From IMG/VR virus record IMGVR_UViG_3300000101_000008, positions 2,677-66,676 of that record: a DNA stretch of 64,000 bases; one strand, given 5' to 3'. Source of the DNA: a virus. A model generated the notes under the pieces. The model saw only the letters and a program-made list of their open reading frames with translations, had not been told where the DNA came from and did no database searches. Shown here one piece after another: positions 3 through 5,013 of the stretch (position 1 is the stretch's first letter; every line of letters begins with the position of its first letter). Made by a program: the position numbers and the translations under genes.

Positions 3-605
3 TCAGCGGCAGGAGCAGTTAAACAAACTGCAAAAAATGTAGGTAATAAAGTTACTGCTGATAAACTTACTAAACAATGGACTAAGATGGGATCACCATT
101 AGATTCAGGTAGTATTGCTAATATACTAGCAGATGCTGGTATGAGCAACGACCAAATACAAAGCATTGGATCAACACAAAAAGTAGAATTAGAACCATCT
201 AAGCCCCAACAAGATCCTGAAACACAGCCAGATGCACCGAGTACGGATACAGCACAAAAAGGTGCGGATTCGGAACAACCAAGTGCTAAAACACCACCAG
301 CAGTTAAAGATGCACCTATTAAAAAAGGTACTATAATGAACAAAGGTGGTAAAGATTACGAATGGGCAGGCGCACTATGGGTTGACACAGAAACAAATAA
401 ACCTGTTGGTGTACAAGCAAGTTTTGATATGGGATTACCAAATCCTAAATTTACTGCAATTCTTAAGGCTGTTAAAGCTGATCCAGAATTAGGAAAATTA
501 GTAAAAGCACAACTTACTGCTAAAGGTGTAAAACCGGGTACTGCACAAGCAGGACAAGCGGCACAAGCAGGTGTTAAAGGAACTGAAAAACTTAAGACTG
601 CCTAA
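3..605 (+). CDS. Virion-associated hypothetical protein, C-terminal part (5' end outside window)
   Basis: The frame is open from the first full codon of the window, so the gene begins upstream; the first ATG at 87 is probably internal. The visible 200 residues are low-complexity in the middle (rich in Pro, Gln, Lys, Asp, roughly 60-110 of the visible part). A short folded block follows, with an aromatic motif (YEWAGALWVDTETNKPVG), then an Ala/Gly/Gln-rich tail. It ends convergently against the minus-strand gp51-like frame, overlapping it by 4 bp. I do not recognise the family. A linker plus small domain next to hub and tape-measure genes suggests a virion or tail component, but that is inference from position only. 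Confidence 0.6.
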   Translation, partial: SAAGAVKQTAKNVGNKVTADKLTKQWTKMGSPLDSGSIANILADAGMSNDQIQSIGSTQKVELEPSKPQQDPETQPDAPSTDTAQKGADSEQPSAKTPPAVKDAPIKKGTIMNKGGKDYEWAGALWVDTETNKPVGVQASFDMGLPNPKFTAILKAVKADPELGKLVKAQLTAKGVKPGTAQAGQAAQAGVKGTEKLKTA

Positions 606-832
606 AAATAAGGTAGTCCGCTTTTCTTTGTAGTTTCGAAATTGTCTTCAACCATTTTACCGATTATTTCTCGTTCTTCAGGTCCGAGATAATAGGCTTC
701 TTCGTAGGTTAGACCTCCACGCATCAACCAACATAATTTAGTAAGTTCTAATTTAAACTGTTTAGATTCTTGTTCAAGGACCTTAACTTCTTCTAGGATC
801 TCTGGGACGGTCCACGTCAGGATCCTTATTCG
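602..832 (-). CDS. 51: gp51-like baseplate hub assembly protein, apparently expressed by -1 frameshift from gene 26
   Basis: A 76-codon frame in the -1 phase relative to gp26, reading through LTWTVPEILEEVKVLEQ, then LELTKLCWLMRGG, and ending KKSGLPYF. The MRGG and ETTKK blocks resemble the short gp51 hub-assembly proteins of marine T4-like phages (recalled family similarity, not searched). It is too short for simple ORF calling. It has no ATG, GTG or TTG near its beginning: the first ATG (724-722) is well inside, and only CTG, ATA or ATC codons lie upstream. It starts exactly at the T-TTT-TTC heptamer (838-832) in gene 26, followed by a hairpin. The simplest reading is a gp26-gp51 fusion made by programmed -1 frameshifting. 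A non-AUG start is the alternative. Confidence 0.7.
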   Translation of the reverse strand, partial: RIRILTWTVPEILEEVKVLEQESKQFKLELTKLCWLMRGGLTYEEAYYLGPEEREIIGKMVEDNFETTKKSGLPYF

Positions 833-838
833 AAAAAA
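795..838 (-). promoter_or_regulatory. Programmed -1 ribosomal frameshift signal (slippery site plus hairpin)
   Basis: On the minus strand the zero-frame codons AAT TTT TTC contain the canonical X-XXY-YYZ heptamer T-TTT-TTC (838-832). After a 5-nt spacer comes a hairpin: AGGATC (826-821) pairs with GATCCT (800-795). It continues inward as CT/AG and GACG (818-815)/CGTC (809-806) around a 5-base loop, with small bulges at 805-804 and 801. The gp26 stop TAA (828-826) lies directly after the slip site. All three parts (heptamer, spacer length, hairpin) were read directly from the sequence. Confidence 0.75.
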
Positions 839-1704
839 TTCGACTGATCAAATGTAATTGGTACTTCGTAAGTTTCTGGAACACCTTGTAATTTTTCTTC
901 GTCAGTTGCTTGTGCAATTAACGGCTTTAGTGTAAACTTGTCTTTTTCTGATTCTAAGTGTTTTTGAATACTATTAAAAAATGTTTTATCTGCATTTTTA
1001 ATAAAGTCAAGTATATGTGTTCTGTTAGTTACTAATATTGGATCATCATTTTCTTGTGGTAGCTCAATACTTTTAATACCTTTAACCATCATGTCTACAG
1101 TTAGTTCAGTAAGTTTTGCAAACGAGTTTGTAAATGCTTGAAGTTTATCTTCTTCTTTCATTGAATCGTCGTTAACAACATTAAAGATACGTTGTTCTTC
1201 AAATGTTTTCAAAGCACCGTCTGTAAATTCTCTGTAATTTAATGGACGTAAACGTATTGTCATTTCCGGTAGCATTACAACATCATTGTATTCAATATTA
1301 GCAAACTGATCTAATAATTGTCTTAAATCTACACCCATTTCTTTTTCTTCTCCTGTCACTGGAGTTTTAATTTTGAGTGTCATTTGTTCGCCGTATGTTG
1401 CAAGTCTAATAGCAATAAGACATACATCAAGATCTACACTAGGTAGTTTCCATGCATCTTTAATTGCAGGTATACAACTTTGAATTACATCAACTGTTGC
1501 TTGTCCGTTAAGTAACGCATCAGGAGTTTTAAATAACAGCTCATCTTTTGCTGTCATTGAATAAACTTCAACTTCTCCGCTCTCTGGAAAGTCAATTGCT
1601 CCTGCTGGATAGTATCTTCCTTGGCTAGGAAGGCTAATATATAACTTAGATTGTCGAAAATACTTACTAAGTGGGTTTGATTCTGGTGATTTTATTTGTG
1701 ACAT
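826..1704 (-). CDS. 26: Baseplate hub / tail-assembly protein gp26-like
   Basis: 292 residues. The sequence, with SKYFRQSKLYISLPSQGRYY near the start and a DALLNGQATVDVIQSC block, matches the gp26 family of marine T4-like phages; gp26 is needed to assemble the central baseplate hub. I chose the ATG at 1704, not 1725, because GGAG lies 6 nt before it and the upstream ATG has no ribosome site. A late promoter (1748-1755, minus strand) precedes it. The gene ends with the slippery heptamer T-TTT-TTC five codons or fewer from its stop, and the next frame continues as a gp51-like protein (see that entry), giving a predicted 367-residue fusion. The divergent neighbour is the probable tape-measure gene, the usual partner of frameshifted tail-assembly chaperones. 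Confidence 0.75.
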   Translation of the reverse strand: MSQIKSPESNPLSKYFRQSKLYISLPSQGRYYPAGAIDFPESGEVEVYSMTAKDELLFKTPDALLNGQATVDVIQSCIPAIKDAWKLPSVDLDVCLIAIRLATYGEQMTLKIKTPVTGEEKEMGVDLRQLLDQFANIEYNDVVMLPEMTIRLRPLNYREFTDGALKTFEEQRIFNVVNDDSMKEEDKLQAFTNSFAKLTELTVDMMVKGIKSIELPQENDDPILVTNRTHILDFIKNADKTFFNSIQKHLESEKDKFTLKPLIAQATDEEKLQGVPETYEVPITFDQSNFFE

Positions 1705-1782: not shown

Positions 1783-4700
1783 ATGGCCGAAGAAGTAAAA
1801 ATTGTTGACGTTGCCGGCGGACCTGCCGCAGAAGCTACATTACAAGAAATATTAAAGATAATGAAGCGCGGAGGCCAATCCGGGTCCGGCGGCGGTGGCG
1901 GCGGTGCAAAAGCACAAGACCTGTACACAAAAGCAGTAACACGTGGTACAACTACTACTAAAAAACAAACAGAAGAAGTTAAAAAAAGCACTAGTGCATT
2001 AAAATCGTTTAGTAGCGGTCTTTCCTCAGGTATAGGTTTTGCATTTAAAGCACTAGGATCAGTACTAGGTGCTACCACAGGACAACTAACAAATTTTGCT
2101 GGCGCAGTACAAAACAGTAATAGTGTTACTGAGTTTCTTAGTCAAGTACCTATATTAGGCTCAGCACTTGGAAAAGCAAGTGCTTACTTTGATAAAAGTT
2201 TAGGAACTTTTCAACAGTTAAGTGAATCAGGCGCCTCGTTTGGTAACAATATGTTAGCAATGCGAGAAGCATCAGCAAATGCAGGTCTTAGTTTAGATCA
2301 ATTTGCAGATATGGTTTCATCAAACTCGACTAATATGACTTTGTTAGGCGGCACAGTTACAGGCGGTGCACAGCGTTTAGGTAAATTAACCAAATCACTT
2401 AGAAGTGTAGAAAACGGTATGTTTGGTTTAGGTTTCACACAAGAGTCATTAAATGAAGGCATGGCTGATTATATTGAAAACCAAGCAAGAGCAGGACAAC
2501 TTAGAGGAAGATCAGATGCATCATTAACAGCTGGTGCTAAAAATTATCTACTAGAAATAGACAAACTTGCAAAAGTTACTGGTAAAAGTAGAAAAGCATT
2601 ACAAGACGAAATAAACGGCAGAATGGAAGCGGCAAACATTAACGTGCTTGCTTCTAAATTAAGTGGCGATGGCTTAATAAATTTCCAAAACAACTTACAA
2701 TTTTCTTCTGATATTATGGGCAAGTCAGGACCAGCATTTAGTGATGCATTAGGTGATATGGCTGACGGTGTTTCCCAAACACCACTAGCACAATATTTAG
2801 AAGCAAACGTATCCGGTCTAAAAGAATTACAAGTAGCAAACGCAACAGGAGCAATTAGTCAAGAAGAATATAAAGCTCGTCTAATGAAGATGCTTCCAGA
2901 GATTACTAAATTATCAGATACTATGGGTGCGGCAGGTACATCAGCATTGGCCCAAACTGAAGGCATGGGAGAGTTTGTACAAATGACTGCTGATGCTAGA
3001 ACAGCAGGTCAACGTGAAATAGATATGAGAAAGGCCGCGGCTGAACAAGGGAGAAAAGATGCTGTTACTGATGTGTTTGCTAAGTTTAGACAAACTATAC
3101 AAACTATTAGAAGTAACATTGAAGAAGCATTACTTAACTCAGGCGTAATGGACACACTAGGTACTGCATTAACAGGTATAAGCAATACACTTGTAGAAGT
3201 TACTAAAGGAATTACTGAAAACTTAGTAAGATATCTTAAGAGTGATCAGTTTAAAGCAGATGTTGAAAACTTTAAAAATAAAATAGTCGCAATGGCCGTA
3301 AAAGCACAAAGTATGGTCAAATATTTAAGATCGGAAGAGTTTAAGAAAAAGTTTGATGACTTTATGGCAAAAATTGGTGAAGGTGTAACTTCAATTAAGG
3401 CGTTTGTTGCTGATGTTACAAAGTTAGGATTGAACGAAGCTATTGCAAAAGCACTAGGCGGTGCAGAAGGTCAAACCATTGGTGATGTTGTTAAAGATAA
3501 ATTTAGCGAAATGATCGGCGGCATTGATTTTTCAGGTATTGCTGTAAAGTTAGGACTTGCTATTACTGGACTGTTTATAGGCGCAAAAGTTATTGGCGCA
3601 ATGACAAAAGGTGTTGGCAGTATGTTTGGCGGATTATTTGGCGGTACTAAAGGAGGTCCTGTTAAAGGTCCAGCAGGTGCAGGCAAAGCAGGTAAAGGTG
3701 TTGGAGACTTTGTTGGCAATGTAGGCGGTGGTGTTCTCAAAGGCATCGCTAAAGGATTAGCGGCATTCGGCAATCCACAAGTAGCAATAGGTGGCGCAGT
3801 ACTAGCAGGAGTTATTCTTGTTATTGGCGCGGCAGTTGCAGGTGCTACGTGGTTAGTAGGTAAATCATTACCAACGTTTGCAGACGGCATGAAGTCTTTT
3901 GAAGATTTAGACGGTGCTAAACTTTCAGCGGCAGGAAAAGGTATGCTTGCAGTTGCAGGAGGCATGGCGGCATTTGGTGCAGGAACAGCAGTTGCAGGAC
4001 TAGGAAACTTAGTAGGCGGAATAGCAGACGGCATTGGTGCATTATTTGGTGCTGAAAAAGCAAATCCATTAGATCAACTATTAGAATTTCAAAAATACAC
4101 AATTGATGAAGCAAAAGTCAAAGGCAATGCAAACGCACTAGTTGCATATTCAACTGCAATGGCCGCATACGGTGGCGGTACAGCGGCAAGTGGATTAGGT
4201 ACTTTAGTAAGTGGGTTAGCAGGCGGCATTACATCATTCTTTGGCGGTGAAACTGGCATACCATATGATGATATAATTAAATTCCAAGGTTATGCTTTTG
4301 ATACAGAAAAAGTAAAAGCAAACGCGGCCGCAATGGTAGCATTTAACGAAGCATTAACTTCTAATTCAAGTGCAGGCGCAACAAGCGGTGTAGGAAATGC
4401 AGTTGGAGCAATTGGCAATGCTATTGCAGGATTCTTTGGAGCTAAAACACCATTTGACAAAGTAAAAGATTTTGGAGCAATGGAATTAAATGCTGAAGGT
4501 GTTAAAACAAATGCTGAAGCAATGGTTCACATGGCAAATGCTCTAAACTCATTTACAAGTGGAGAAGCAGGAGAGATTGAAATCTCTCAAAGAACTGTTG
4601 CATCATTAGAACGTTTAGCTGGCATGGATAGCACAGGTATTGGTACATTATCTACTAACTTGCAAGGTATTGCTTCAATAACAGGATTAGATACAAACAT

Positions 4701-5013
4701 TAATTCGCTCAATTCACTTGACACAGAGAGCATAACCAATTATAATAAAGCAATGAAAGAATTAGTAGAAGTATTAGGTGAATTAAATACTGAACTTGCT
4801 AAAGATAATAAACTTGGTTTCGGTACTGGAACTAATGCAGGTGATGTTGTAGCTAAAATGGATACAATTGGCGGCGGTGGCTCCGGTACTGGTAGCTCAG
4901 ATCAGCTAGAACGGTTAAATATGTTAGTAGGAACTCTTAGTGACATAATGAGAGAAGTGAGTACAAATACCAAAGCGACTGCTACTAACACTAGCGGGAA
5001 CATTTACGGTTAG
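1783..5013 (+). CDS. Probable tail tape-measure protein
   Basis: 1076 residues. A Gly-rich N-terminal linker (about residues 30-45) is followed by long helical, Ala/Gln/Lys-rich stretches. Two Gly-rich hydrophobic, membrane-like segments lie at about 585-615 and 660-690. Three degenerate repeats of about 75 residues (pattern AMVAF/AMAAYGGGTAASG) follow at about 700-910. Long helical composition with internal hydrophobic segments is typical of tape measures, which line the tail tube and set its length. No direct homology to T4 gp29 was recognised, so the call rests on architecture and on position beside gp26/gp51. At about 1.5 angstrom per residue it would predict a tail near 160 nm, longer than T4. 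It could instead be another large inner virion protein. The stop is followed 8 bases later by the portal gene. Confidence 0.5.
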   Translation: MAEEVKIVDVAGGPAAEATLQEILKIMKRGGQSGSGGGGGGAKAQDLYTKAVTRGTTTTKKQTEEVKKSTSALKSFSSGLSSGIGFAFKALGSVLGATTGQLTNFAGAVQNSNSVTEFLSQVPILGSALGKASAYFDKSLGTFQQLSESGASFGNNMLAMREASANAGLSLDQFADMVSSNSTNMTLLGGTVTGGAQRLGKLTKSLRSVENGMFGLGFTQESLNEGMADYIENQARAGQLRGRSDASLTAGAKNYLLEIDKLAKVTGKSRKALQDEINGRMEAANINVLASKLSGDGLINFQNNLQFSSDIMGKSGPAFSDALGDMADGVSQTPLAQYLEANVSGLKELQVANATGAISQEEYKARLMKMLPEITKLSDTMGAAGTSALAQTEGMGEFVQMTADARTAGQREIDMRKAAAEQGRKDAVTDVFAKFRQTIQTIRSNIEEALLNSGVMDTLGTALTGISNTLVEVTKGITENLVRYLKSDQFKADVENFKNKIVAMAVKAQSMVKYLRSEEFKKKFDDFMAKIGEGVTSIKAFVADVTKLGLNEAIAKALGGAEGQTIGDVVKDKFSEMIGGIDFSGIAVKLGLAITGLFIGAKVIGAMTKGVGSMFGGLFGGTKGGPVKGPAGAGKAGKGVGDFVGNVGGGVLKGIAKGLAAFGNPQVAIGGAVLAGVILVIGAAVAGATWLVGKSLPTFADGMKSFEDLDGAKLSAAGKGMLAVAGGMAAFGAGTAVAGLGNLVGGIADGIGALFGAEKANPLDQLLEFQKYTIDEAKVKGNANALVAYSTAMAAYGGGTAASGLGTLVSGLAGGITSFFGGETGIPYDDIIKFQGYAFDTEKVKANAAAMVAFNEALTSNSSAGATSGVGNAVGAIGNAIAGFFGAKTPFDKVKDFGAMELNAEGVKTNAEAMVHMANALNSFTSGEAGEIEISQRTVASLERLAGMDSTGIGTLSTNLQGIASITGLDTNINSLNSLDTESITNYNKAMKELVEVLGELNTELAKDNKLGFGTGTNAGDVVAKMDTIGGGGSGTGSSDQLERLNMLVGTLSDIMREVSTNTKATATNTSGNIYG

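Follow-up and report, generated by a model that had tools for sequence, protein, structure and literature searches.

A programmed -1 frameshift very probably yields short and long forms of a gp26-like protein, putative tail assembly chaperones, in a jumbo myovirus

Introduction

The locus described here resembles in layout the G/G-T genes of phage lambda, in which two overlapping reading frames give a short form and a C-terminally extended form (Levin 1993; Xu 2004). For T4-like phages, the tail assembly chaperone genes were identified as gp26/gp51 by Vladimirov, Gautam and Davidson (2022, Virology 566:9-15), as that work is represented by its title and by papers that cite it. The title argues that T4-like phages rely on a different mechanism from frameshifting. 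One citing paper states that some of these phages carry a short gene plus a fused long gene in place of frameshifting (PMC10885494), and another credits the 2022 work with poly-T slippery sites in the TAC-N genes of T4-like phages (PMC12846349). The latter paper also describes, in 2025, a conserved -1 frameshift in Pakpunavirus Adele and the Vandenendeviridae, in which TAC-N ends in an invariant poly-T motif (PMC12846349). T4 gp51 is needed for assembly yet is absent from the virion (PMC3004832).

In this study, we examine a gp26-like gene in a window of 64,000 nucleotides, the whole stretch of DNA analyzed, which comprises bases 2677-66676 of a 101-kb viral record; positions below are those of the window. 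The initial annotation had proposed that this gene is joined by a -1 frameshift to a gp51-like protein, in the manner of the lambda G/G-T chaperones. We consider it very likely that a programmed -1 ribosomal frameshift in the gp26-like gene gives rise to a short and a long form, and that these are most likely tail assembly chaperones. The conserved -1 site, with its short and C-terminally extended forms, supports the parallel with lambda.

Results

The gp26-like gene lies on the minus strand and opens at ATG 1704, preceded by a good ribosome site (GGAG, 1710-1713). The 291 codons common to both predicted products (832..1704, minus strand) end in a slippery heptamer, T_TTT_TTC (832..838, minus strand), which is in phase with the ORF from that ATG. 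On the minus strand the 3' end of the gene reads TCG-AAT-TTT-TTC-GAA-TAA, and the zero-frame stop, TAA, is read directly from the sequence at 826..828 (minus strand). From the heptamer, the -1 frame continues as a C-terminal extension of FF plus 76 codons (605..838, minus strand), a predicted helical domain in the position of gp51, through to a TAG at 602-604 (minus strand). The predicted products are a zero-frame short form of 292 aa and a -1 fusion of 367 aa. Direct reading thus bore out the heptamer, its phase at the end of gene 26 and the 76-codon continuation, and the window also contains the described 5-nt spacer and bulged 12-bp hairpin (-12.4 kcal/mol). The TAG of the extension overlaps, at 602-605, the stop of a convergent plus-strand ORF that ends at 605.

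By itself the TTTTTTC motif is uninformative, since it occurs 14 times in the window against an expectation of 18.7. Among the 71 window ORFs of at least 100 codons, only the gp26-like gene has a slippery heptamer within its last 12 codons that opens into a -1 extension exceeding 14 codons. The slip site stands far beyond chance because it is conserved in related sequences. These comprised 30 IMG/VR loci collected through the gp26 part (34-98% identity), 22 collected through the extension, and 11 isolated phages; grouping at 70% amino-acid identity gave 24 gp26 clusters. Aligning the junctions showed that the gp26 frame of all 24 clusters has an in-phase T_TTT_TT[C/T/G] at its end and leads into a long -1 extension, and that the heptamer is exactly T_TTT_TTC in 21 of them. 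The carriers span cyanophages, a pelagiphage, KVP40 and the jumbo phages RaK2, GAP32, PA5oct and Atu_ph07, and the same slip site was present in every non-T4 relative checked that has both parts side by side.

The in-phase heptamer, which has the X_XXY_YYZ form of programmed -1 frameshift sites, is conserved beyond coding need. Asn, Ser, Asp, His, Thr or Arg may stand ahead of Phe-Phe, but the codon for this residue has T as its third base in every case. With expected codon choice calculated from the codon usage of these genes, the chance of such a choice in 21 clusters, given the residues, is about 1e-20, a figure that takes the clusters as independent and so overstates the case. The zero-frame stop shifts from 2 to 8 codons past the slip among clusters; the heptamer and the -1 frame stay.

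The -1 frame is coding and under purifying selection. In the final 55 extension codons, pN/pS was 0.43 in the -1 frame, as compared to 0.99 and 1.45 in the other frames, which have 7 and 8 stops over the extension in the window. The extension has an invariant core consisting of W.MRG, an Arg and a Pro near its end.

One alternative is that the extension is a separate small protein, for which ribosomes ending at the overlapping stop would reinitiate on a non-AUG codon, or on ATG in the relatives, with the run of six T incidental. An ATGA overlap occurs at the junction in Atu_ph07 and Phosso, and an ATG lies near the stop in KVP40, Cr30, phiM9, S-PM2 and P-SSM2, so that separate initiation is possible in all of these phages and reinitiation may add product in some relatives. 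In addition, AAGG or AGG lies just past the stop in many members, and several clusters have TTG at extension codon 4. The codon homologous to this TTG, however, is CTG in the window, TTA in loci L012, L013 and L030, and ATA in L033, and 8 of the 24 clusters have no ATG, GTG or TTG within the first 25 extension codons (those of the window, PA5oct, RaK2, L012, L030, L033, L045 and L050). Moreover, the heptamer is intact even in the relatives with an ATG, so reinitiation cannot be the general explanation, and an in-phase T_TTT_TTC is not required by such a route. We therefore regard reinitiation as an unlikely source of the extension. As for the earlier claim that the extension has no usable start of its own, it holds for the first 25 codons in the window, whereas an ATG does occur close to the junction in several relatives; none was found to combine its own ATG with a broken heptamer.

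Returning to the frameshift, two candidate stimulatory structures were compared downstream of the slip site. Structure A is the local hairpin (795..826, minus strand; -12.4 kcal/mol, 5-nt spacer), and structure B is a long-range stem in which 826-816 pairs with 787-777 (777..826, minus strand). The 74-nt region downstream is modestly more stable than its shuffles (z -1.6). Within the close clade, structure A reached -9.0 by RNAalifold versus -7.3 for the best of 100 column shuffles. When L012, the next relative, was added, the preferred structure switched to stem B, in which 90% of cells are paired, 8 of the 11 pairs are invariant and one compensatory change is seen; its covariation measures were equalled by 27-38 of 500 shuffles. 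RNAalifold across all lineages found no common downstream structure. The longer-range stem fits slightly better than the local hairpin, and the evidence for either is modest.

As a conserved stimulator, the local hairpin was rejected, as it is broken in L056 and L012 and lacks covariation. The compensatory changes that the initial annotation proposed to look for in the hairpin were not found for the 12-bp stem in the related sequences; the hairpin is present and favoured in the close clade, but is not shared beyond it. A candidate pseudoknot, pairing the hairpin loop GGACC with a downstream GGUCC, pairs well in close relatives and shows covariation no better than shuffles. Although Arg has six codons, the AGG two codons past the slip (window 824-826) recurs almost throughout the wider family of the window. 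This codon contributes to the 5' arm of stem B as well as of hairpin A, and it also looks like a ribosome-binding site.

Synonymous identity within the close clade falls from 0.78 over extension codons 3-19, the stretch spanned by stem B, to 0.54 after them, which argues for selection beyond protein coding just downstream of the slip. This constraint bears on a further possibility, that the long form results from transcriptional rather than ribosomal slippage at the T6 run. The conserved element is indeed a six-T run, but six T are short for slippage by a bacterial polymerase. The run also ends at TTC in a fixed codon phase in 21 of the 24 clusters, as suits tandem tRNA slippage, and in the clade of the window roughly 50 nt downstream of it are under synonymous constraint. 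Transcriptional slippage thus appears very improbable. Dozens of contigs of independent origin share the two-frame layout with the genomes of isolated phages, which refutes the idea that an assembly or sequencing error split one continuous gene.

The gp26-like protein matches Pfam PF12322 (T4_baseplate; E 5e-11, 43.1 bits versus a cut-off of 24.5) and phrog_150 (baseplate hub; E 4.9e-15), and by this homology the short form belongs to the T4-like gp26/gp51 chaperone family. Its AlphaFold model (pLDDT 83.8) has best matches, at E 4e-21, annotated as T4-like baseplate hub assembly proteins; a fold search of the PDB with the model gave no significant solved structure. By portal and gp26, the phage is nearest to the jumbo myoviruses Atu_ph07, Phosso and PA5oct, and it groups with these rather than with typical marine T4-like phages. 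Elsewhere in the window, four consecutive very large plus-strand ORFs occupy 15911-42274 (1706, 1836, 1831 and 3098 aa), and an ORF at 7031-7759 matches phrog_30607 (unknown function) and, more weakly, phrog_4603 (sialyltransferase).

The extension is related to those of RaK2, GAP32 and PA5oct (98% in profile comparison). A family profile search with it matched no gp51 family, phrog_634 included, and comparison with the C-terminus of T4 gp51 gave no match. Against a cyanophage/KVP40 gp51 profile it scored a probability of 7.5% (E 0.005), with a S..E....P.ER motif aligned, and a relationship to cyanophage gp51 is only suggestively indicated by sequence. Its AlphaFold model is helical (pLDDT 84), and a fold search with this model gave no match. 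The label "gp51-like" is therefore apt for the position of the extension, the same as that of gp51, and its clear kinship is with the RaK2, GAP32 and PA5oct extensions; it matched no gp51 family. In the group of RaK2, GAP32, PA5oct and Atu_ph07, the extension is annotated, if at all, as a truncated ORF or a separate small hypothetical protein: there is no CDS for it in PA5oct (L004, 4834-5060) or RaK2 (L099/L106), and it is a truncated ORF in Atu_ph07 (L002, 4819-5055).

In T4, gp26 (208 aa) and gp51 (249 aa) are encoded by separate, divergent genes, and both are full matches to PF12322; gp51 carries an extra C-terminal part, phrog_634. The site in T4 gp26 equivalent to the slip reads TTC-TTT, and the heptamer is thus gone from T4. 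In the cyanophages, HTVC008M, KVP40, phiM9 and Cr30, gp26 is followed in the -1 frame by a small gp51, which corresponds to the C-terminal part of T4 gp51. Campylobacter phage NCTC12673 (L101), of a distant lineage, has two separate phrog_150-like ORFs, the second of which bears the phrog_634 part; this is apparently a T4-like two-gene layout, and the frameshift may have been lost there independently.

Divergent from the gp26-like gene is a gene for a structural protein of 1076 aa (1783..5013, plus strand), which adjoins the portal gene and is a tape-measure candidate. The protein has relatives among the virion structural proteins of GAP32, RaK2, Atu_ph07 and Phosso, and the annotation of the one in RaK2 notes similarity to a tape measure protein. 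The 1076-aa protein matched no tape-measure family; the T4 gp29 family, considered specifically, gave no match in any of 9 records. Since no tape-measure family was matched, the protein is a plausible but unproven tape measure as judged from sequence. The proposed position of the gp26-like gene next to a tape-measure gene is accordingly plausible, given the RaK2 annotation, but unproven, and the two genes are divergently transcribed. Their linkage is not universal, as they lie far apart in Atu_ph07. As for the place between the tail tube and tape measure genes that is typical of the lambda-type class, an annotated tail tube gene adjoins gp26 in KVP40 and HTVC008M.

Discussion

We propose that most ribosomes would stop at the TAA and release the 292-aa short form, while a minority would slip at T_TTT_TTC, from TTT-TTC to TTT-TTT, aided by a downstream RNA structure, and go on to make a 367-aa long form ending in the helical C-terminal domain. 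The sequences directly show the anatomy of the site, its conservation and coding selection in the -1 frame; the slippage itself, its rate, the RNA structure that stimulates it and the chaperone role are inferred. The two forms would most likely be tail assembly chaperones of a jumbo myovirus, of the T4-like gp26/gp51 family, and both would coat the tape measure protein and guide assembly of the tail tube. A chaperone role for both is suggested by membership of the family, by the published assignment of T4-like gp26/gp51, and by the behaviour of T4 gp51, which is required but is not found in the virion.

The tie between gp26/gp51 and the chaperone class, drawn in the initial annotation, is not new, because the assignment credited to Vladimirov et al. 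(2022) and the Vandenendeviridae frameshift precede it. For the group of RaK2, GAP32, PA5oct and Atu_ph07, no description of the frameshift was found in the literature searched, in which the 2022 work is represented by papers citing it. These jumbo myoviruses can now be placed in the scheme of frameshifted tail chaperones, and their annotation can be corrected, as the extension was missed in PA5oct and RaK2 and truncated in Atu_ph07.

The slip site also persists where gp26 and gp51 are annotated as two genes, in genomes of KVP40, cyanophages and a pelagiphage. Its retention across these lineages suggests that T4, the textbook model, is the exception. We lean towards the view that the whole T4-like supergroup, jumbo myoviruses included, ancestrally made its long chaperone by a -1 frameshift at T_TTT_TTY; that the T4 two-gene layout is a derived replacement that came about by duplication; and that RaK2, PA5oct and similar jumbo phages obtain the C-terminal domain only through frameshifting. 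The two-gene layout may have arisen more than once, since the Campylobacter phage also looks two-gene. Because the heptamer is conserved while the title of Vladimirov et al. (2022) refers to another mechanism, whether these genes frameshift or not is directly testable in culturable phages.

Compared with lambda, the window shares overlapping frames in which the extension has no start of its own, a feature that does not extend to every relative. The lambda G/G-T heptamer is GGGAAAG, and differs from the T_TTT_TTC of the window. In lambda the genes lie upstream of the tape measure in one operon, whereas the window gene is divergent from its tape-measure candidate. The chaperones of Pakpunavirus Adele and the Vandenendeviridae resemble it in a conserved -1 frameshift, a poly-T motif and an unannotated extension, although their motif is GTTTTT rather than TTTTTTC (PMC12846349). 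The cyanophages, HTVC008M and KVP40 are annotated with two genes, and their extension falls in phrog_634, which that of the window does not match; they are like the window in a junction with an in-phase T_TTT_TT[C/T]. With the T4-like gp26/gp51 chaperones the window shares the PF12322 family and the pairing of a short form with a C-terminally extended one, which T4 encodes as two separate genes, 26 and 51, and the window as one gene with a -1 frameshift.
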